Positions 45,851-62,951 of a stretch of DNA of 64,000 nt are shown here, in pieces; the first letter of the stretch is position 1, and each line of letters begins with the position of its first letter. The notes under the pieces are model-generated. The model saw nothing but the letters and a program-made list of their open reading frames with translations. It was not told the DNA's origin and did not search any database. The stretch covers positions 1-64,000 of the forward strand of contig NZ_FQZU01000004.1 in NCBI RefSeq assembly GCF_900142135.1. Direction: 5' to 3'. A program made the position numbers and the translations under genes. This DNA comes from Desulfatibacillum alkenivorans DSM 16219. GTDB lineage: Bacteria > Desulfobacterota > Desulfobacteria > Desulfobacterales > Desulfatibacillaceae.

Positions 45851-47512
45851 TTAGAACTTGAGAGACCGGATAAAGCATCCGGAATCGTCGTCATCGCCTC
45901 CGGTGGACTTGGGATCTTCCGGAGCAGTCATGGCGTATCCGCCCGGGTCCACAATGGTCCCGTTGGCGGCCCCGTCCGTATCTCCAATTCCTCCGTCCGT
46001 CAAAGTCAGGATAATGGTGTTGTCGTCCACGATGGTGATTCTATCCGTGGGGAATGCATAAAAGTCGCCTGCAGCGTCAAGTTTGTAATAGACGGCGTCG
46101 GACTGCCTGGGCGTGGGGAAGGTGATGGTTACATCCACGTCCGACCCGGCTGCAACTCCTTCTACGGTCACGCCGATCAAGCCGTCCACAAAGGGCAGGG
46201 AGGGGGCGTTGCCTGCATTGGGAAAGTCGGTTTTTTCATGCGCCGTCATATCCGCAATGGTTCCAATGCTGCTGGACGCGCTTAAGCTTCCTGTTCCGGT
46301 GGCTGCGTTGATTTGGTTGCTGCCTTCCCAGATGGTGGGCGGACAGAAGGCAATGCTGCCGGGGTTCAGGTTGGTGTCCACCTGGTCCTCCACGGAATCG
46401 TCGGCGGGGTCAATAATGAATACGGTGTGATCCGTCCCGCCCGAAGAGAGCCAAACCAGTCCGTTTTCATCCATGGCGGCGCCGGTTTCGTTTCCGGCCA
46501 GGGACTTCCCTTCCAGCCCTGTCACCACGTCGCCCACTGCTCCGGTGGTGGGGTTGAAGGCCTGAAACACATTGTCCCCCCAGCCTTTGTATCCCACAAA
46601 ATAGCCTTTTTCCGGACTTATAACGGCCAGGCCGGAAAAGGCGCCGTAAGGATGGCTGCCGTCCGGGCCGTCGGGACCGTCGTCGATAAGTTTGGTTACG
46701 GTGTAGGCGTCAGGGGCCAGAGCGAAAATTCCCCCTGCATACAGCATGGGGCTGTCGGCGCTGGAGCCGGGGTACTTTCCGGTAGCGGCGATGTAGATAG
46801 TGTCGTTTTCGGGCAGGTATTGAATTACCTGGGGATTGGCGCCATTCAGGACAATGCCATTGGGCGTCAAAGGGTCGCCGTTGGTGTCGATTTCCTGGTC
46901 TGTGGCCGTGTCGATTACGGCGACGTAGGAGGCGCTGTAGGGATCCCAACCGCTGTTGCGATCCAATTGTTGCAGGAGCAAAAACAGCTTGCCGTCCACA
47001 ATCACGCCGGCGTGCATTTCGGGAATGCCGTCGCCGTCATCATAGGCGGAGAGGTCGATTTCTCCCGTTTTAGCGCCGGTCTGGGGATTGATGATCCAGC
47101 ATTTGTCCGTTTCATACATGGGCATGTAGGCTTTTCCCGCGTTCAGGAAAATCATGTCGTGGGGGTTGCCGCTGGCAAGCCCGCCGGGCAGAACCGAAAC
47201 CTGGTAGATGGGATCCTCAGGGGCGTCAACAGCGAACTTGGTCAGGCTGTCCGTGTAGTATCGGCCGATAAGATAAAAATACTGCCCGTAAGAGCGTATG
47301 ATCCAATCGCTGGTGTCGGTGGGAAACAAGTCCACGTCCGCGTCTCTGGCGCCCAGTGCCGGATTGACGTCAATGACGGCGTGAGCAGCGCTGTCCCAGG
47401 TGGAAGCCGTGGTCTGGACCACCGCCTGTTGGCCGGCGGCATAGGCCTGTCCAGCGGCCAATAGCATTAAAACAAAGAACAAACCATGAAACTTGGATAA
47501 AAATTTTTCCAT
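45851..47512 (-). CDS. Secreted propeller protein with choice-of-anchor U domain, B12-regulated operon
   Basis: A 553-residue exported protein. After the signal peptide (LFFVLMLLAAGQAYA) comes a YncE-like propeller (about 40-390), with repeated segments such as YLIGRYYTDSLTKF, ASYVAVIDTATDQEI and TVFIIDPADDSVEDQV. Residues about 400-530 match the choice-of-anchor U pattern (VYYKLDAAGDFYAFP, LTLTDGGIGDTDGAANGTIV). It ends in an Asp-rich GGDDDDSGCFI and only five more residues, a cut-short form of the usual GCFIATAAYGS-type tail. It lies 74 bp after the TonB-receptor gene under a cobalamin riboswitch, so it may be a surface or periplasmic partner in corrinoid uptake. The start at 47512 is set by the signal peptide. 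Confidence 0.78.
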   Translation of the reverse strand: MEKFLSKFHGLFFVLMLLAAGQAYAAGQQAVVQTTASTWDSAAHAVIDVNPALGARDADVDLFPTDTSDWIIRSYGQYFYLIGRYYTDSLTKFAVDAPEDPIYQVSVLPGGLASGNPHDMIFLNAGKAYMPMYETDKCWIINPQTGAKTGEIDLSAYDDGDGIPEMHAGVIVDGKLFLLLQQLDRNSGWDPYSASYVAVIDTATDQEIDTNGDPLTPNGIVLNGANPQVIQYLPENDTIYIAATGKYPGSSADSPMLYAGGIFALAPDAYTVTKLIDDGPDGPDGSHPYGAFSGLAVISPEKGYFVGYKGWGDNVFQAFNPTTGAVGDVVTGLEGKSLAGNETGAAMDENGLVWLSSGGTDHTVFIIDPADDSVEDQVDTNLNPGSIAFCPPTIWEGSNQINAATGTGSLSASSSIGTIADMTAHEKTDFPNAGNAPSLPFVDGLIGVTVEGVAAGSDVDVTITFPTPRQSDAVYYKLDAAGDFYAFPTDRITIVDDNTIILTLTDGGIGDTDGAANGTIVDPGGYAMTAPEDPKSTGGDDDDSGCFIRSLKF

Positions 47513-47586
47513 AATACCCTTCCCCTCATATTTGGTAGGCCTATGGGGCCTGTTAGCGTCACCGCTCCTCATGCCGATATACAAAA

Positions 47587-49695
47587 TCAACCCTCAAACT
47601 TTATGGTCAGGTAATAGGCCCTGCCGGGCAAGGGATAGCCGTTATAATCCTCATAACGCTTGTCCCTTAAGTTTTTGCCTTGCAGTTCAATGGAAAATCC
47701 CTTGAACAGGTATGCCGCGCCGGCGTTCAGTTCCTTTTTTTCAGGCGCTTCCAATAAGTTGGCGGCGTCGTAAAAATTACCCGCCTCGTAAAAGTATTCG
47801 CTGTAGATTTTAAGACCCTTGTAATGGAATTCCACTTTGCCTGAAGTCGCCCATTCGTAACGCCCGGGCAGCTTTTTATTGTTGAAGGTGGAAATCTCGC
47901 TGGTGTTGACCGCGTCCTGCCACGTGGCGCTGCCCGAAACCGTGAACAGGTTCAGGAAATCGGCGGCGGCTTGGCTTTCCACTCCCGTGATTTCGGATTC
48001 GGAAATGTTGACGGATTTACCTACTCCCCGGGAGTCGTAAATGCGGGTGATGAGGTCATCCACGTCGTTTTTAAAGTAGGCGCCGGAAAGATACACGCGA
48101 TTGATGAGCGTCCAGCCCGTCAGGTAATTCACTTCCAACCCCACGTCAAAATTGGTTCCCCGTTCCGCCTCCAACTCTTCGTTTCCGATGAAAAACCCCC
48201 TGTCGCCGAACAATTCGAAAAACGAAGGCTCGCGCACATACTGGGCGGCGTTGGCCTTGAGGCTGATCCACTCCCAGGGCTTGACCTTAAGGCCGCATTG
48301 GGGCATCCAGTATTCGTCCTGGCGTGCGCTTTTTTCCAGTTGGGAGCCCCAAACGGTGGTTCCCGACTCCAGTTCGTCATCCAGCCAGGCGTAGCGCACG
48401 GCGGGGGTTAGAATAACCCGTTGCGAGAGCAGCATCAGGGTGTCCTGGAGAGTGGCCACTATGTAGTCCCGGTTGCTGTCACGAGGGTCATCCGCCTGCA
48501 ACAAATCCTCGGGGCTGTAGTCTTCGTGCTGATATTCCATTTTGGCGGCCAGAATGTTGTATTCGGAGATCCATTCCGCATACAGATCGCCGGTCCAGCG
48601 CTGGGTGTTGTATTTGTTCAACTGCTTGCCGAGCCCCACGGATCCTTCCAGGTCGTCGTATTTTTCCTCCTTGTCGCTGTAGCTGATGCTTGCGGCCGTG
48701 TTGAGCGCCAAAGGCGTGACATTGTCCAAGCCCATGCGAAGGGTGGTGATGTTCCGGGAGGTGGCGAGGTTGGTGGAGGCCGTCTCCAGGTTGATCCAGT
48801 TGGGCAGGTTCTGGTCCTTGAAGAAGTACTGGTTCACCAGGTCGAATCGGAGATTGCGATTGGCGTCCCAGCCGGCCTTGGCCAGAACGTTGTATTGGTA
48901 GAACTCGGCGTTGCGCCTTTTTTGAATCTGGTCATCCACTTTGTTCCAGCCTGTTCCCATGTCGTTTTTGAATTCAAAATCGTTGGCGCTTCCCAAATAG
49001 TCTGCAGACAGCAGGACGTCGGCTTTCCCTGGCTTGTGGTTGATGAATCCAAAGGCCTTTTTGGTGTCGAAGGAGCCGTAGCCGAGCCCTACGTTGTATT
49101 TGGTCCCTTTTTGGGCGCGGAGCGTCTTGATGTTGATTACGCCGCCGATTCCGGCCTTGCCGAAGCCGGCGGGGCTCACTCCCCTATACACATTGATGGA
49201 GGAAACGTCGGCAAGGCTGATATTGGAAAGGTCCACGCCTCCGCCTGAGGCGTCGTTCAGCAGAATGCCGTCCAGGTAGATCATCACCTGGTCGCTGGAA
49301 GATCCCCTGAGAGAGACTGTGGAAAAGCTGCCCAGCCCGCCCGACTGTTTGACCTGGATTCCGGCCTCCTTTTTCAGGACTTGAGCCAGGTTTTCCATTT
49401 TTCCTATAAACTGCTCCCTGGGTATCACGGTGAAAAAAGACGGCGAGTTTTCCTGGTCAACGTCTCCGGTCCGGAAGTCATCCGGCAGCCTTTGCGCGGT
49501 AACTACCAAGTCGTTCAGCACGTAGCCGGCTTCCATTTCCTGTGTTTGCGCGGTCTTTTGCTCTCCCGGCGCCTCTTCGCTCTGGGCCCAAATCAAAGGG
49601 GAAATGCTCATGAAAACAGTAAAAACGATGAAAAAAGTGAGGCGAACAACCCTTTCGGTTCTTCTTTGAATGGTGATATTTCCAAACAACTTCAT
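47587..49695 (-). CDS. btuB: TonB-dependent outer-membrane receptor, BtuB-like (corrinoid uptake)
   Basis: A 702-residue TonB-dependent receptor. The N-terminal export signal is long (LTFFIVFTVFMSISPLIWA). A TonB box-like NDLVVTAQRL is followed by the plug domain (MENLAQVLKKEAGIQVK, SLRGSSSDQVMIYLDGILLN, GVSPAGFGKAGIGGVINIKT). A beta barrel follows, ending in FSIELQGKNLRDKRYEDYNGYPLPG and YYLTIKFEG. The cobalamin riboswitch upstream indicates a vitamin B12 or related corrinoid as substrate. The ATG at 49695 follows AGGAGA and lies just after the riboswitch's terminator. The gene and the downstream propeller form one operon. Confidence 0.9.
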   Translation of the reverse strand: MKLFGNITIQRRTERVVRLTFFIVFTVFMSISPLIWAQSEEAPGEQKTAQTQEMEAGYVLNDLVVTAQRLPDDFRTGDVDQENSPSFFTVIPREQFIGKMENLAQVLKKEAGIQVKQSGGLGSFSTVSLRGSSSDQVMIYLDGILLNDASGGGVDLSNISLADVSSINVYRGVSPAGFGKAGIGGVINIKTLRAQKGTKYNVGLGYGSFDTKKAFGFINHKPGKADVLLSADYLGSANDFEFKNDMGTGWNKVDDQIQKRRNAEFYQYNVLAKAGWDANRNLRFDLVNQYFFKDQNLPNWINLETASTNLATSRNITTLRMGLDNVTPLALNTAASISYSDKEEKYDDLEGSVGLGKQLNKYNTQRWTGDLYAEWISEYNILAAKMEYQHEDYSPEDLLQADDPRDSNRDYIVATLQDTLMLLSQRVILTPAVRYAWLDDELESGTTVWGSQLEKSARQDEYWMPQCGLKVKPWEWISLKANAAQYVREPSFFELFGDRGFFIGNEELEAERGTNFDVGLEVNYLTGWTLINRVYLSGAYFKNDVDDLITRIYDSRGVGKSVNISESEITGVESQAAADFLNLFTVSGSATWQDAVNTSEISTFNNKKLPGRYEWATSGKVEFHYKGLKIYSEYFYEAGNFYDAANLLEAPEKKELNAGAAYLFKGFSIELQGKNLRDKRYEDYNGYPLPGRAYYLTIKFEG

Positions 49696-50213: not shown

Positions 50214-50645
50214 TTACCAGCCTTTGGTGAAAACGATTTCGCGGATTTTGTCTTCGTTCTTTTTTTCCACCAAAAGCATTTTTTTCGCCTGGGCTTCCTT
50301 GATTTTTTCCATGAGGGATTGGATTTCGGCGGGCTTTTCCAGGAAATCCATGGCGCCCAGTTTCACCGCTTCAATGCCCTTTTCCAGGGAGGCGTGGCCG
50401 GTCATCAGGATAACCTGAAGCTCGGGATTGGCGGCCAGCATTTTTTTCAAGGTTTCAATTCCGTCCATTCCGGGCATGACCAAGTCCAGGATGACGGCGT
50501 CGTAGGATCCCAGGCTGGGGTTGGCCAGGGCTGCGGTCCCGCTTTCCGCGGTTTCCACCTCAAGCCCTTTGGAGGTGATTCTCTCGGAGAGGATGTCCAA
50601 AAAATCCTCGTTATCATCCACTAACAGCACTTTACCTTGGCTCAT
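50214..50645 (-). CDS. Single-domain response regulator, last gene of operon
   Basis: A 143-residue receiver: acid pair D10-D11, phospho-acceptor D54 in VILDLVMPGMDG, Thr in LMTGHAS and Lys in FLEKPAEI. A lysine-rich C-terminal extension of about 20 residues has no output domain, so the effect is probably through protein contacts. It lies 30 bp downstream of the kinase-like phosphotransferase gene, and AAGGAG precedes the ATG. As the last of six genes on one strand, it is a likely terminal or shuttle receiver of the proposed relay. Confidence 0.92.
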   Translation of the reverse strand: MSQGKVLLVDDNEDFLDILSERITSKGLEVETAESGTAALANPSLGSYDAVILDLVMPGMDGIETLKKMLAANPELQVILMTGHASLEKGIEAVKLGAMDFLEKPAEIQSLMEKIKEAQAKKMLLVEKKNEDKIREIVFTKGW

Positions 50646-50675: not shown

Positions 50676-51335
50676 CTATGCCGCCATCAGGGCGGGAATG
50701 ATCAACTCCATGGAGTAGGTATTCCCGGGGACGAGGATTTCCGCTCCCATGCCTTGCAGGGCGCACTGGACAGTCGCCTGGCAAGTGGGAGGAAGTTCCG
50801 GATCATCCTCGCCAGCATCAAATCCTAACATGGCGCCTCCTTCATGAGGTTGGACATGGATGTTCAACTCTCTTCCTTTCCCCAAGCAGTCCAAAAAAAT
50901 CTGCATGCAGGTGATCACTGCAGAGACCAGCCTGAAAGGGTCGGTTTCCACTTGAACGGGATCAGACGGAACATGGGCGTGAAGAAGGATCCCCCGCATC
51001 TGAAACAACCTGTCTATCAATACGATTATAAAACGGATCTCTTCTCCGATGTCCACTGTTTTTTTGCACAGATCCACCGTATGAGCGAACCGGTTCATGC
51101 GTTTGACAATGACGTCAGCCTTTTCAACCTGTTTGACAATCCGGTCCGCCAGGCTTTTCATACGGGCCGGATCCAGGGTGCGGCCGTGCTCTGCAGCCAT
51201 CAGGAGGTCGCCTTGCAGGCCGGCGATTTCTTTAATAATCGCCAGGGAATTCTTGATTTCATGGGAGATGTTAGCTGTTACTTTGCCGAACAGGACTGCG
51301 CTCTCCCTATCCGAGTTATCAGGCATCCTAACCAT
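50676..51335 (-). CDS. Kinase-like phosphotransferase with degenerate ATPase domain (ChpT-like)
   Basis: A 219-residue protein. The HisKA-type dimerisation helix keeps the phospho-acceptor His25 and its context (NISHEIKNSLAII) and the second helix of a four-helix bundle. The C-terminal half has the size and strand order of an ATPase domain (VETDPFRLVSAVITCMQIF resembles the N-box helix) but lacks the N-box Asn, the DxGxG and the GxGLGL lid. It could therefore accept and pass phosphate but probably not bind ATP, as described for the ChpT family of histidine phosphotransferases. It lies between two stand-alone receivers (51338 and 50214), the expected partners. Alternatively it is a decaying kinase. 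Confidence 0.7.
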   Translation of the reverse strand: MVRMPDNSDRESAVLFGKVTANISHEIKNSLAIIKEIAGLQGDLLMAAEHGRTLDPARMKSLADRIVKQVEKADVIVKRMNRFAHTVDLCKKTVDIGEEIRFIIVLIDRLFQMRGILLHAHVPSDPVQVETDPFRLVSAVITCMQIFLDCLGKGRELNIHVQPHEGGAMLGFDAGEDDPELPPTCQATVQCALQGMGAEILVPGNTYSMELIIPALMAA

Positions 51336-53525: not shown

Positions 53526-54737
53526 TTAATTCCTGATTTGGGCCTTCTTGTACGCCTCACGCATTTTTTCCGAAAGCACCTCGATATCCACGGGCTTTTC
53601 CAGATAAGCGAAGGCCCCCAGGTCCATGCACAGGTTTTTGTCTTTCTCGCTGCCGTGGCCCGTGAGGATGATCACCTCAATGCCCGGATGGCTCTGCTTG
53701 ACTTTACGAAGCACTTCCATGCCGTCCATGCCGGGCATGTTCAGGTCCAGGACCATGACTTCGGGCTCGTCCTCCTGGATGAAGTCCAAAGCCTGCTGCC
53801 CGTCGTAAACCACGGCGGAGCCCACATCGCGCATCAAGAGCCGGTCAGACAGGGTTTGAACGAATTCCTGCTCGTCGTCCACCAGCAGGACCTTGGACGG
53901 GGCCTCAAAATCGTGCTTCCGGTAAATATCCGCCTTGTAAAAATCAGGTCCGACCTTGGTTTCCACGGAATTGACTCCTGATAAGTTGGAAGCAATGCTT
54001 TTCAGTTCATCCTCCAACTTGTTAAGCATGAGGGAATGCTTGTTGATGGTCAATATTACGTTCTTATCCTTAACCTCAACGCCCACGCTGTGGCCTTCCT
54101 TGACCAGGGCGGTTTCCACATGAGCGGCGAGAACAAAGTCGTTCAGCGCCGCCAGGGATTCCTTGGTCGGCAACAGGACGTTTTTCTTGGCGTTTTTGAC
54201 TATCAATTCAGCCGCTTCATCCACGGAGCTTTTGTCCATGGGCAAAAAGATGTCGTACTGGTCCGGAATCCAAGGCGCGGCGCCGGTGATTTTTTCACAC
54301 CATTTGGTCAGGGCTTCCTCGTCCTTGTGCACCAATTTTTGGGCCTGGGCCTCTGAAACGCCTTCCTTTTGAACCGCATTCTTAATGCGAAAGGAAGCCT
54401 CGCCCAGAATTCCCACGGTCAAAACATGCGATATGTGGGAAGGAATGAGCTTGGCGGATTTACCGTAGACGACCACCCCCTGCTCCCGAATCAACCCGGC
54501 GACCACGGCCTTCAAAAAGGCCATGATCCTTTCCTGCTCATGGGTAAAGGCATTGAACACGGAAACCTTGCCATTCATAGTCCGGATGAAGCGGGAAGCC
54601 GGCACGCCGAACTGTGAAGCGGCTTGCTCAATAACCTCTTTGTCGCTGACAAAGGAATACTTCAGATTTTCGGCCGTTTTACGGGCCACGTCCTCAGCCT
54701 GGCAATAAGCGCCGGCGAAGATGCTGATCGTGGACAT
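53526..54737 (-). CDS. Cytidylate-kinase-like protein fused to BON-like and receiver domains
   Basis: A 403-residue fusion. Residues about 1-190 resemble the Cytidylate_kin2 (PF13189-type) family: a degenerate P-loop region in AGAYCQAEDVARKTAENL, then ASQFGVPASRF, AFTHEQERIM, and a GVVVYGKSAKLI strand. About 200-270 resembles a BON domain (VETALVKEGHSVGVEV...GVNSVETKV). About 282-403 is a receiver with D331 in MVLDLNMPGMDG and Lys in YLEKPVDI. The P-loop looks poor for catalysis, so it may sense rather than phosphorylate nucleotides. The receiver is about 65% identical by eye to that of the upstream SulP protein. It is 13 bp from that gene and 54 bp from the kinase gene. Confidence 0.8.
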   Translation of the reverse strand: MSTISIFAGAYCQAEDVARKTAENLKYSFVSDKEVIEQAASQFGVPASRFIRTMNGKVSVFNAFTHEQERIMAFLKAVVAGLIREQGVVVYGKSAKLIPSHISHVLTVGILGEASFRIKNAVQKEGVSEAQAQKLVHKDEEALTKWCEKITGAAPWIPDQYDIFLPMDKSSVDEAAELIVKNAKKNVLLPTKESLAALNDFVLAAHVETALVKEGHSVGVEVKDKNVILTINKHSLMLNKLEDELKSIASNLSGVNSVETKVGPDFYKADIYRKHDFEAPSKVLLVDDEQEFVQTLSDRLLMRDVGSAVVYDGQQALDFIQEDEPEVMVLDLNMPGMDGMEVLRKVKQSHPGIEVIILTGHGSEKDKNLCMDLGAFAYLEKPVDIEVLSEKMREAYKKAQIRN

Positions 54738-57577: not shown

Positions 57578-59170
57578 ATGAACATTCTTTTTGTCGATGA
57601 TGAACAGCCCATTCTCGATATGGTGCGGGAGTATTTCTCCAGCAAGGATCACGAGGTTTTTCTTGCCCACAACGGCAAGGAAGCCTTGGAGATCATCAAA
57701 AGCCGGAAGATAGAATGCTGTTTTACCGATCTCAACATGCCGGGCATGACCGGCATGGAACTGGCTCATGAAATCCAGAAGCATGACAACACCATCCCGG
57801 TTATCGTTATGACGGGATATCCCAGCTTGGACGCAGCCATTAGCACCCTGAAAAGCGGGGTGGTGGATTTTCTCATTAAACCCATTCAGTTGCGTCAGAT
57901 GGAAATTGTTATGCAAACGGTCATGAAACGCAGCGCCATGGTTCAGGAAAACGTCATGTTGAAAAAGGAGATCAAAGGAAAGGCGGAACTGGAGAGGATT
58001 CACCGGGAGCTTAAGGAAAAAGCCCAAGATTTGAAGATGTTGAATGAAATTATTGAAACTCTGGAATCAGCGGGCTCGGTCAAGGAGATCTTTGAAAAGA
58101 CCATCTCTCTGGCCCTGTTGATATCGGAATTCGATGCAGCTTATCTCTTCTTGACCATAGGCGCTGACCAGAAGCCCGCCTGCGCATTAAAACGAGGCAA
58201 CCCGAACAATATGACAGGCCCGGGCCGGGTGGCGAAATTGCAGGACGCGCAGGAGGAGTTGATCTCCTGGCTGGAAAAAACCTCTTTTGACTCTCTGCCC
58301 GCGGCTCTATCCGGCGTCAAGGCGAATGCCCATGAAATGGGTTTGGTCAGGTCCATTGCGGCGGCCCCTATCTCCTTGAGCAACCGCCCTTTCGGCGTGC
58401 TTGTCGCGGTGAGTTTTTCCCATGACAACACCCTTCCGGCAGAGGTTATATCGCGGCTGGTTTTTGCGGCCGAGAAAGCCGGAATGTCTGTGGAGAACCT
58501 GGGGCTTTACGAAAACATATACGAAAACCTCTTTTCCACCTTGTTCGCCTTTGTGGAAACCCTGGAAGCCAGGGACGCATACACCCGCATGCACTCCCTG
58601 CGGGTCACCGCCATTGCGGAATTGCTGGCTAAGGAGCTGGGGCTTCCTGAGGAGGCGCGGGCGGTTCTTCAAGTCGCTGGAAACCTTCATGATATCGGAA
58701 AAATAGGGATATCAGACAGCATTCTCCTTAAGCCCGGAAAACTGGACAAGGACGAGTTTGAGGAAATCAAAAGGCATCCGGATATCGGGGCCAACATCAT
58801 CGGATACATGGGGTTGTGGGACCTGGAAAAGGAGATTGTCCGCAATCACCACGAAAAATTTGACGGCAGCGGATACCCCAATGGACTGGCAGGGGAGGAT
58901 ATTCCCTTTTTGGCGCGTATCCTGGCGGTGGCAGACGTTTTTGACGCCGTGACCACCAACAGGGCCTACCGCAGGCGTTTGCCCGAGGACGTTTGCCTGA
59001 ACATCATCCGTGAAGGCTCGGGAAACCACTTTGACCCCAAGGTGGTGGATGCATTTTTTTCGTTGTATAACAAAGGCGTTATCCAGAACAGGGTTGAGGA
59101 GCTGCAGCCAAAGTCAACCGACCAGATCCCCTTGTTCCCGGCCGAGAAAACCAAGGAGAGGTCTCCATAA
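57578..59170 (+). CDS. REC-GAF-HD-GYP cyclic-di-GMP phosphodiesterase-type response regulator
   Basis: A 530-residue protein. The receiver (1-120) has D51 in CCFTDLNMPGMTG. A coiled linker follows, then a GAF-like domain (about 160-305) and HD-GYP (about 320-500) with NLHDIGKIGISDSIL (the HD pair), NHHEKFDGSGYPNGL (HHExxDGxGYP) and ILAVADVFDAVTTNRAYR. All HD-GYP metal and GYP residues are present, so it should degrade cyclic-di-GMP. It starts 286 bp from the SulP operon in the opposite direction and could take phosphate from the same kinase. A candidate sigma-54 promoter precedes it. Confidence 0.93.
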   Translation: MNILFVDDEQPILDMVREYFSSKDHEVFLAHNGKEALEIIKSRKIECCFTDLNMPGMTGMELAHEIQKHDNTIPVIVMTGYPSLDAAISTLKSGVVDFLIKPIQLRQMEIVMQTVMKRSAMVQENVMLKKEIKGKAELERIHRELKEKAQDLKMLNEIIETLESAGSVKEIFEKTISLALLISEFDAAYLFLTIGADQKPACALKRGNPNNMTGPGRVAKLQDAQEELISWLEKTSFDSLPAALSGVKANAHEMGLVRSIAAAPISLSNRPFGVLVAVSFSHDNTLPAEVISRLVFAAEKAGMSVENLGLYENIYENLFSTLFAFVETLEARDAYTRMHSLRVTAIAELLAKELGLPEEARAVLQVAGNLHDIGKIGISDSILLKPGKLDKDEFEEIKRHPDIGANIIGYMGLWDLEKEIVRNHHEKFDGSGYPNGLAGEDIPFLARILAVADVFDAVTTNRAYRRRLPEDVCLNIIREGSGNHFDPKVVDAFFSLYNKGVIQNRVEELQPKSTDQIPLFPAEKTKERSP

Positions 59171-62327: not shown

Positions 62328-62951
62328 ATGGCAGTGATCACAATAAGCAAGGAATACGGAACCCACAGCAATGAACTCGCCAAAAAACTGGCGGAAAAAC
62401 TGGGGTATGACCAAGTGGGAAAGGGCTTGCTGGCGGACATTGCCAGGGAGTTGAATATTTCGGAAAACGAGGCTGAGGTGTTCAGCAAGGCCTCCAGTTC
62501 CCGCGTGCTCCGGTTCGTCGATAAATATACCTGCTCCATCGTGCAAAAAGTGGTGGACCGCGAACACGGCTGCCTGGACGATGACAATTATTACAACGTC
62601 ACCAAAAAACTGGTGGAAGACCTATACAACGAAGGCAATGTGGTCATCCTAGGATGGGGCGGGCAATGCATCCTTAAAGGCAGGGACAATGTTTTGCACG
62701 TGCGCCTGACCAAAGACATGGGCCTTAAGGTCCGGGAAGTCATGGAAAAGCAAAAGCTGGATGAAGATGCAGCGAGAAAATACGTGGAAAATGAAGAAAA
62801 CGACCTGAAAGCCTACATCAAGCAGTATTACAAAGAAGACTGGAACGATGCGCGTTTGTACGATCTGGTTATCGATATGGGCAAGAACACGGTTGATCAG
62901 GCGGTTCAGGCCATTTGCGACAGCGTGAAGGGCAAGGGGTATATGGACTAA
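62328..62951 (+). CDS. Cytidylate-kinase-like family protein
   Basis: A 207-residue protein of the Cytidylate_kin2 (PF13189-type) family. AVITISKEYGTHSNELAKKLAEKLGYDQ is the P-loop-region strand and helix (the canonical GSGG is replaced by GTHS), with ARELNISENEAEVF, NVVILGWGGQCILKGRDNVLHVRL and DAARKYVENEENDLKAYIKQYYKEDWNDARLYDLVI, the family's LID and late region. Members are of uncertain substrate; the altered P-loop questions true CMP kinase activity. The upstream fused homologue at 53526 shows the family is used in signalling in this organism. An ATG with GGGAGGG precedes. Confidence 0.85.
   Translation: MAVITISKEYGTHSNELAKKLAEKLGYDQVGKGLLADIARELNISENEAEVFSKASSSRVLRFVDKYTCSIVQKVVDREHGCLDDDNYYNVTKKLVEDLYNEGNVVILGWGGQCILKGRDNVLHVRLTKDMGLKVREVMEKQKLDEDAARKYVENEENDLKAYIKQYYKEDWNDARLYDLVIDMGKNTVDQAVQAICDSVKGKGYMD

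Follow-up and report, generated by a model that had tools for sequence, protein, structure and literature searches.

We analysed the first 64,000 nucleotides (hereafter the window) of the forward strand of contig NZ_FQZU01000004.1 from Desulfatibacillum alkenivorans DSM 16219 (assembly GCF_900142135.1), in which a minus-strand gene with an ATG start encodes a protein that joins a cytidylate-kinase-like domain (CLK), a BON-like segment and a response-regulator receiver (REC), here called CLK-BON-REC. The gene lies second in a cluster that runs SulP-STAS-REC, CLK-BON-REC, histidine kinase, receiver, 219-amino-acid protein and receiver (Table 1), with gaps of 13, 54, 43, 2 and 30 bases along it. 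No SulP gene other than the permease gene at the head of the cluster was found in this strain's genome, and the C-terminal receiver of this permease is 60% identical to the receiver of CLK-BON-REC. A promoter and terminator scan was uninformative, with 4 promoter-like sites against 4.6 in shuffled sequence, and 12 terminators against 9.6.

Table 1. Coordinates in the window of the CLK-BON-REC gene, its parts and the neighbouring genes of the cluster.
Feature	Position	Strand	Details and basis
CLK-BON-REC protein (focal gene)	53526..54737	minus	403 amino acids; Pfam and AlphaFold2
Cytidylate-kinase-like domain, residues 1-189, PF13189 fold	54171..54737	minus	Pfam and overlay on 3hdt_A
Eroded phosphate-binding loop, residues 7-17, FAGAYCQAEDV	54687..54719	minus	Alignment and motif counts
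BON-like domain, residues 192-263, alpha-beta-beta-alpha-beta	53949..54164	minus	Fold and profile comparisons
Receiver domain, residues 281-396	53550..53897	minus	Pfam, alignment and model
Codon of D331, predicted phospho-acceptor aspartate	53745..53747	minus	Invariant in 40/40 aligned sequences
SulP-STAS permease with C-terminal receiver, 846 amino acids	54751..57291	minus	Directly upstream, 13 bases off
Histidine kinase with Cache-like sensor, 571 amino acids	51756..53471	minus	dCache_1 E 2.6e-9 (below cut-off), HisKA, HATPase_c
Free-standing receiver, 124 amino acids	51338..51712	minus	Pfam
219-amino-acid protein, phospho-acceptor-type histidine box, no recognisable ATP-binding boxes	50676..51335	minus	Candidate phosphotransfer protein
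Free-standing receiver, 143 amino acids, last gene of the cluster	50214..50645	minus	Pfam

The N-terminal part of the protein matches Cytidylate_kin2 (PF13189) over residues 4-168 (E 3.5e-23; 83.1 bits against a curated cut-off of 28), and the same family is matched by all 34 members of the alignment of receiver-fused proteins (A2; E <= 1, best 2.4e-32). AlphaFold2, supplied with an alignment of 39 sequences, returned a model of the whole protein with a mean predicted local distance difference test score of 88.4 and a predicted template modelling score of 0.84. Residues 1-189 of this model overlay the putative kinase 3hdt_A in the VIA comparison (Z 20.8; root-mean-square deviation 1.9 Å; 164 aligned), the remaining VIA rows shown for the whole model being receivers. 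Profile search and predicted structure therefore both give the PF13189 fold, bearing out the nucleotide-kinase fold proposed in the initial annotation of this gene. At the other end of the protein, Response_reg is matched over residues 283-392 (E 8.6e-27), and D287, D288, D331, T359 and K381 are invariant in all 40 aligned sequences, so that the receiver, as initially assigned, keeps the acidic pair, phospho-acceptor aspartate, threonine/serine and lysine of response regulators. No Pfam match to a DNA-binding output domain was found anywhere in CLK-BON-REC. The protein is probably soluble (peak hydropathy 1.44) and probably regulatory, in agreement with the initial proposal. A chance reading frame was ruled out: residues 1-275 were matched (E <= 0.001) in 227 of the 291 genomes of the order, a count that takes in other PF13189 proteins too, and relatives with open frames of about 400-500 amino acids spanning these residues are among the matches listed.

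The phosphate-binding loop of the kinase-like domain has been replaced throughout the receiver-fused proteins. PF13189 proteins carry [FY]-G-[SA]-G-G at this position (3hdt and the own-genome paralogues L202 and L203, both of which retain FGAGG), whereas the receiver-fused proteins carry F-S-G-x-[FY]-C; the loop of the window protein, ISIFAGAYCQAEDVA, is without GxxxxGK[ST]. Walker A, sought only within the N-terminal 70 residues of the frames as called (a few of which have N-terminal extensions), occurs in none of 63 receiver-fused and none of 29 receiver-less relatives, and a G-K-E-type motif in none of the 63 versus 22 of the 29. The poor P-loop noted initially is thus confirmed, the family motif being missing from every fused relative. 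Across the alignment of 40 sequences G9 and C12 are each kept in 37, N62 and Y161 in 39, and F61, R117 and D162 in all. Mean conservation in the fused group (34 sequences) is 0.58 over residues 4-17, 0.80 over residues 58-70 and 0.56 over the whole domain, compared with 0.90 (loop), 0.74 and 0.73, respectively, in the receiver-less group (16 proteins). The fused group has therefore lost the loop but holds another motif, S-V-F-N-x-F-T-H-E-x-E, which is strongly conserved in the kinase-like domain, and this is the pattern expected of a ligand-binding pseudo-enzyme. With neither Walker A nor G-x-G-G/G-K-E in its loop, CLK-BON-REC is, judged from its sequence, probably not a working nucleoside monophosphate kinase.

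Two cysteines of the protein, Cys12 in the loop (codon 54702-54704) and Cys370 in the receiver (codon 53628-53630; 40/40 aligned sequences), form a possible redox or sulfide handle. The genome contains seven PF13189 matches, among them a stand-alone protein encoded in the window at 62328-62951 on the plus strand (207 amino acids, E 7.2e-53), in whose loop, ISKEYGTHSNELA, the usual glycines are also gone.

The segment between the two domains was folded on its own (residues 185-279), since the receiver dominated the VIA list for the whole model. It is predicted to fold as alpha-beta-beta-alpha-beta, which is the BON topology as described for DolP in the part of PMC7806268 consulted. Four of the six top Foldseek rows (1, 2, 4 and 6) are BON proteins, namely OsmY, DolP/YraP, BonA and gonococcal DolP (E 1.3e-3 to 5.9e-3; template modelling scores to the query 0.51-0.57), and no match in this search with the segment reached E <= 0.001. 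In the VIA list (Z 8.9 downwards) BON, secretion-ring modules and DUF59 tie at 8-9. A profile of the receiver-less relatives (A3) matches OsmY (E 2e-5) and YraP (E 9e-4) across the BON-like region, whereas the profile of the receiver-fused proteins (A2) matches no BON structure at E <= 1. Pfam finds BON (PF04972) over residues 199-230 of the window protein with E 0.2 and 12.4 bits, under the curated cut-off of 27, and at E <= 1 in 9 of 34 and 8 of 24 members of two alignments (best 0.034 and 0.016). The BON segment of the initial annotation is accordingly retained at the level of the predicted fold only: there, topology, top Foldseek rows and the receiver-less profile speak for it, the Foldseek E-values and the tied VIA scores leave it short of a firm assignment, and neither the Pfam cut-off nor the fused profile supports it; hence the name BON-like. 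The predicted topology agrees with that of OsmY, DolP/YraP, BonA and Kbp, from which CLK-BON-REC differs in being a signalling protein in which a signal peptide is not evident. The lipid-binding tryptophan described for DolP in the same part of PMC7806268 has no counterpart here, helix 192-213 of the window protein containing no tryptophan. Table 1 of that survey lists CBS+CBS+BON and BON+Mschannel architectures, in which BON is joined to sensing or transport parts elsewhere.

Relatives were compared in two sets of loci. The named loci, 80 in number, ranked best among 302 family matches, a choice that favours near relatives, and their genomes partly overlap those of a second set of 80 hand-picked loci (G loci). 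Of the latter, 39 were chosen for the fusion, one is an own-genome paralogue stretch, 20 surround matches that are receiver-less or of odd length, and 20 come from a phylum search; the 20 stretches L099-L118 all encode the fusion. Genes were labelled by phmmer against the window and locus proteins rather than with curated models, L130 and L172, which end at a contig edge before the receiver, were counted as fusions, and a STAS fragment at one contig end was counted as SulP. The architecture, which the initial annotation had proposed to look for elsewhere, recurs in both sets, and in a tree of 94 rows a branch supported at 100/100 holds all 64 receiver fusions together (midpoint root; bootstrap unsettled, 0.987). 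As the fusions form a single tree group, one fusion event suffices to explain them. Two of the 80 named loci carry the labels Planctomycetota and Nealsonbacteria (L125, L149); these labels may be binning errors, and a wider taxonomic spread was set aside.

The neighbourhood is conserved along with the protein. In 77 of the 80 named loci the nearest upstream gene, on the same strand, is SulP (the other three being one contig end and two unrelated frames), at a median distance of 16 bases (74 measured), and a Cache kinase lies immediately downstream in 55. The 219-amino-acid protein is present within six genes in 57, many contigs being truncated, and a TetR gene in 49; the upstream gene of about 196 amino acids was TetR in all four cases tested by Pfam. 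Of the 63 fusions of the G loci, 48 have SulP as the immediate upstream neighbour and 49 have it within six genes. Of the receiver genes on the same strand within six genes, 114 of 116 and 101 of 106 encode proteins of no more than 190 amino acids, which is short for the usual DNA-binding output. SulP bears a receiver of its own in the window and in L039, L065, L099 and L101. In a small FastTree that included free receivers from a few loci, these SulP receivers group with those of CLK-BON-REC and are separated from the free receivers (0.958); support for a group of the SulP receivers themselves is weak (0.315).

Relatives of the 219-amino-acid protein have the histidine box in 40 of 44 cases and the N, G1 or G2 boxes in none of the 44. 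Histidine phosphotransferases of the ChpT/Spo0B type are built as a dimeric helical hairpin with the phosphorylated histidine and a degenerate ATPase fold; a histidine box without N, G1 and G2 boxes makes this partner similar to them at motif level.

A variant of the cluster is seen in L116 (8706-12406), L114, L115 and L117, where CLK-BON-REC and a receiver are followed by CBS, Na_sulph_symp and CitMHS-type permease genes, the Pfam domains having been read for L116 only. It is perhaps the DASS/CBS kind of cluster outlined in the portion of PMC11887813 consulted.

Receiver-less CLK-BON proteins are found beside transporters of several kinds. The genome of D. alkenivorans itself encodes one on contig C5 (L058:9760-14540), in the order CitMHS/Na_sulph_symp/TrkA_C transporter, CLK-BON, separate receiver and HAMP histidine kinase. 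For the 29 receiver-less copies of the G loci, an SLC13-type transporter (CitMHS/Na_sulph_symp/TrkA_C) lies within four genes in 17, a second CLK-BON in 15, a receiver gene in 24 and a kinase in 22, while five of seven receiver-less copies in the named loci have SulP within four genes. Those of L086 and L098 adjoin TauE/SafE, and that of L093 adjoins Na_H_antiport_3. The occurrence of CLK-BON, alone or fused to a receiver, beside several ion transporter families is the strongest argument we have that transporters are its likely target.

Tandem receiver-less pairs follow an SLC13-type permease in L079 (14114-15799), L080, L081, L082, L084 and L089; the second copies form a clade of their own, several of them without the loop motif, and their sequences suggest kinase/pseudokinase pairs. 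In L098 (6063-7625) the gene just ahead of TauE/SafE encodes a CLK-BON protein of 520 amino acids; about 250 residues are added at its C terminus, and this extension ends in hydrophobic segments.

The permease of the window scores 443 bits with the sulP model TIGR00815 (cut-off 380), the DauA and BicA models lying far below their cut-offs, and presumably transports sulfate. The genome carries aprA, a gene detected in 163 of the 395 genomes sampled from the phylum. Of the 50 fusion-bearing genomes, which were assigned manually on the length and coverage of the open frame, 46 have aprA, versus 117 of 345 others (Fisher p 1.3e-15); of 79 genomes with a CLK-BON-type match (E <= 1e-20), 73 have it, versus 90 of 316 others. 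Both statistics ignore shared ancestry.

Taking these observations together, we favour, with confidence that is about evenly balanced, a reading in which CLK-BON-REC is a response regulator whose pseudo-kinase/BON-like output controls the activity of SulP. The protein would be a cytosolic response regulator with an output other than DNA binding, and its receiver would obtain phosphate from the histidine kinase of the cluster, probably via the short receiver and the 219-amino-acid histidine protein. Phosphorylation would then alter the action of the kinase-like/BON part on the neighbouring permease, and sulfate import would be tuned at the level of transporter activity. As the donor loop is eroded while S-V-F-N-x-F-T-H-E-x-E is conserved, the kinase-like domain, seen as a pseudo-enzyme, more likely binds a ligand than turns it over, the conserved motif presumably taking part; our guess at the ligand is a nucleotide or a sulfur nucleotide such as adenosine monophosphate (AMP) or adenosine 5'-phosphosulfate (APS). 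The direction of the function comes from SulP and the phosphorelay-like gene context, which the initial annotation had missed, as it had the receiver-less relatives beside other transporters.

Several points weigh against this reading. A conserved neighbourhood shows a shared pathway rather than physical contact, and the protein might act instead on the kinase, on the TetR repressor or on some partner encoded elsewhere. Of the 63 G-locus fusions, 14 have no SulP in view within six genes; one of these, the fusion of L116, adjoins CBS, Na_sulph_symp and CitMHS genes, so that SulP is not the sole partner of such fusions. Peak hydropathy rises to 2.21 among 78 relatives, and solubility is therefore less certain for the family as a whole than for the window protein. 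To these may be added the sub-threshold Pfam score and silent fused profile of the BON-like segment, the aprA counts, which ignore shared ancestry, and four fusion genomes (of 50) without detected aprA. Finally, the part of PMC11887813 consulted reads the response regulators of such clusters as WalR-type, i.e. transcriptional.

That last point leads to the alternative of an ordinary two-component output acting on expression, in which phosphorylated CLK-BON-REC would lift repression by TetR or guide another regulator, with SulP simply as the regulated gene. The frequency of TetR genes near the fusion and, in PMC11887813 as far as consulted, a TetR operator palindrome beside the WalR-type regulators speak for it; yet CLK-BON-REC is without a DNA-binding domain, the nearby receivers are nearly all short (114 of 116), SulP is itself receiver-bearing in the window and in some relatives, and no TetR gene is seen beside the window SulP, the first gene of any size there being the divergent 57578-59170. 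We regard this alternative as unlikely. Should the domain instead be an active nucleotide or sulfonucleotide kinase with an unusual loop, which makes or removes a small signal close to the permease and is switched on or off by the receiver, the clear PF13189 fold, the retention of R117, Y161 and D162 and the loop motif of most receiver-less relatives would all find a place. The loss of that motif from all 63 fused proteins in favour of a different pattern with Cys12, and a loop that is less conserved than residues 58-70 in the fused proteins while the reverse holds in the receiver-less ones, make such a kinase quite improbable.

SulP proteins carry several anions, and the cluster might serve another one (bicarbonate or dicarboxylate) unrelated to sulfate respiration, as the four fusion genomes without detected aprA would allow. 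This we consider very improbable in view of the sulP score with BicA and DauA far below, the overall association with aprA and the treatment of such a SulP as a sulfate transporter in the part of PMC11887813 consulted. The faintest prospect of those weighed here is redox or sulfide sensing through the cysteine that replaces the loop, which would signal sulfide build-up to the uptake system. The host bacteria make sulfide and both cysteines are widely kept (Cys12 in 37/40), but Cys12 gives way to serine or threonine in L054, L072, L078, L113, L114 and L116.

Part of this system has a published counterpart. As far as consulted, PMC11887813 (Sci Adv 2025) reports a cluster of Desulfobacteraceae in which SulP is accompanied by TetR and two-component genes, as well as a DASS cluster that includes CBS proteins; it proposes that Cache kinases sense sulfate, that the regulators are of the WalR type and that APS may be sensed too. 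SulP, a Cache-type kinase and response regulators are common to that cluster and the window, TetR being present in most relatives but not seen beside SulP in the window; the locus of Desulfosarcina alkanivorans (L192), with TetR, SulP, CLK-BON-REC, Cache kinase, 219-type protein and receiver, resembles it by description. The published model is transcriptional, whereas the cluster regulators found here are without DNA-binding domains and one of them is fused to kinase-like and BON-like domains. The words cytidylate and BON are absent from the main text of PMC11887813, and the part of PMC5840216 consulted makes no mention of cytidylate, response regulator, histidine kinase, receiver or two-component. 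Among open-access full texts, which leave most subscription papers outside, none was found that joins a cytidylate-kinase-like with a receiver domain, or a BON domain with a response regulator and sulfate permease; those naming Cytidylate_kin2 or a cytidylate-kinase-like protein deal, judged by their titles, with other subjects. The BON survey PMC7806268 counts PF13189 and cytidylate kinase once each, in a passage outside the part consulted, and probably holds an earlier kinase-like/BON pairing. The initial annotation had called the system undescribed; this stands for the architecture and role of CLK-BON-REC, for which no description was found in the open-access literature consulted, and not for the SulP/TetR/two-component cluster. 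As far as we have seen, the protein, its loop loss, the fusion and the recurrence of CLK-BON beside several transporter families are new, and the kind of cluster is already known. Of the solved PF13189 members, 3hdt (putative kinase) and 3fdi (uncharacterized protein) share the fold of residues 1-189, and CLK-BON-REC differs from them by the eroded loop and the added BON-like and receiver domains.

Other features of the window were recorded alongside. In the permease, PF00916 is matched in two stretches (best 20-238) and the best stretch of TIGR00815 begins at residue 358; a charged insert of about 110 residues (about residues 225-355) splits the PF00916 stretches. The median length of complete SulP partners across the named loci is 713.5 amino acids (68 counted), and the insert may be general in the clade. 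The divergent plus-strand gene upstream of SulP (57578-59170) encodes a receiver with HD_5 (HD-GYP-like), where many relatives carry TetR. Beyond the far end of the cluster, 45851-47590 on the minus strand encodes a protein of 579 amino acids with a choice-of-anchor U domain and a CFI-box putative sorting motif, adjoined by a TonB-dependent receptor gene (47587-49695).

Dissimilatory sulfate reduction begins with the uptake of sulfate, and according to PMC5840216, as far as consulted, no study had identified the uptake proteins of sulfate reducers. Encoded right behind SulP in nearly all named loci (77 of 80), CLK-BON-REC is a concrete candidate for matching uptake to demand and may help to set the rate of sulfate uptake in sulfate-reducing bacteria. 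AMP and APS are products of spending ATP on sulfate, and a bolder form of the favoured reading, which we hold to be possible though doubtful, is a two-input gate in which the dead kinase would read AMP or APS while the phosphorelay reports on the outside, setting the permease within seconds and without transcription. RCK/TrkA_C, CBS and STAS are cytosolic regulatory modules attached to transporters or encoded beside them, and the kinase-like/BON pair with its receiver is a module different from these. If the gate were real, SLC13/DASS, TauE/SafE and antiporter-type transporters would be under similar control by the receiver-less relatives, and CLK-BON would be a general transporter-regulating module comparable to the RCK, CBS and STAS domains. 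The receiver-less relatives in any case widen the idea of transporter control to several ion transporter families, and CLK-BON would add an output module to those of response regulators.
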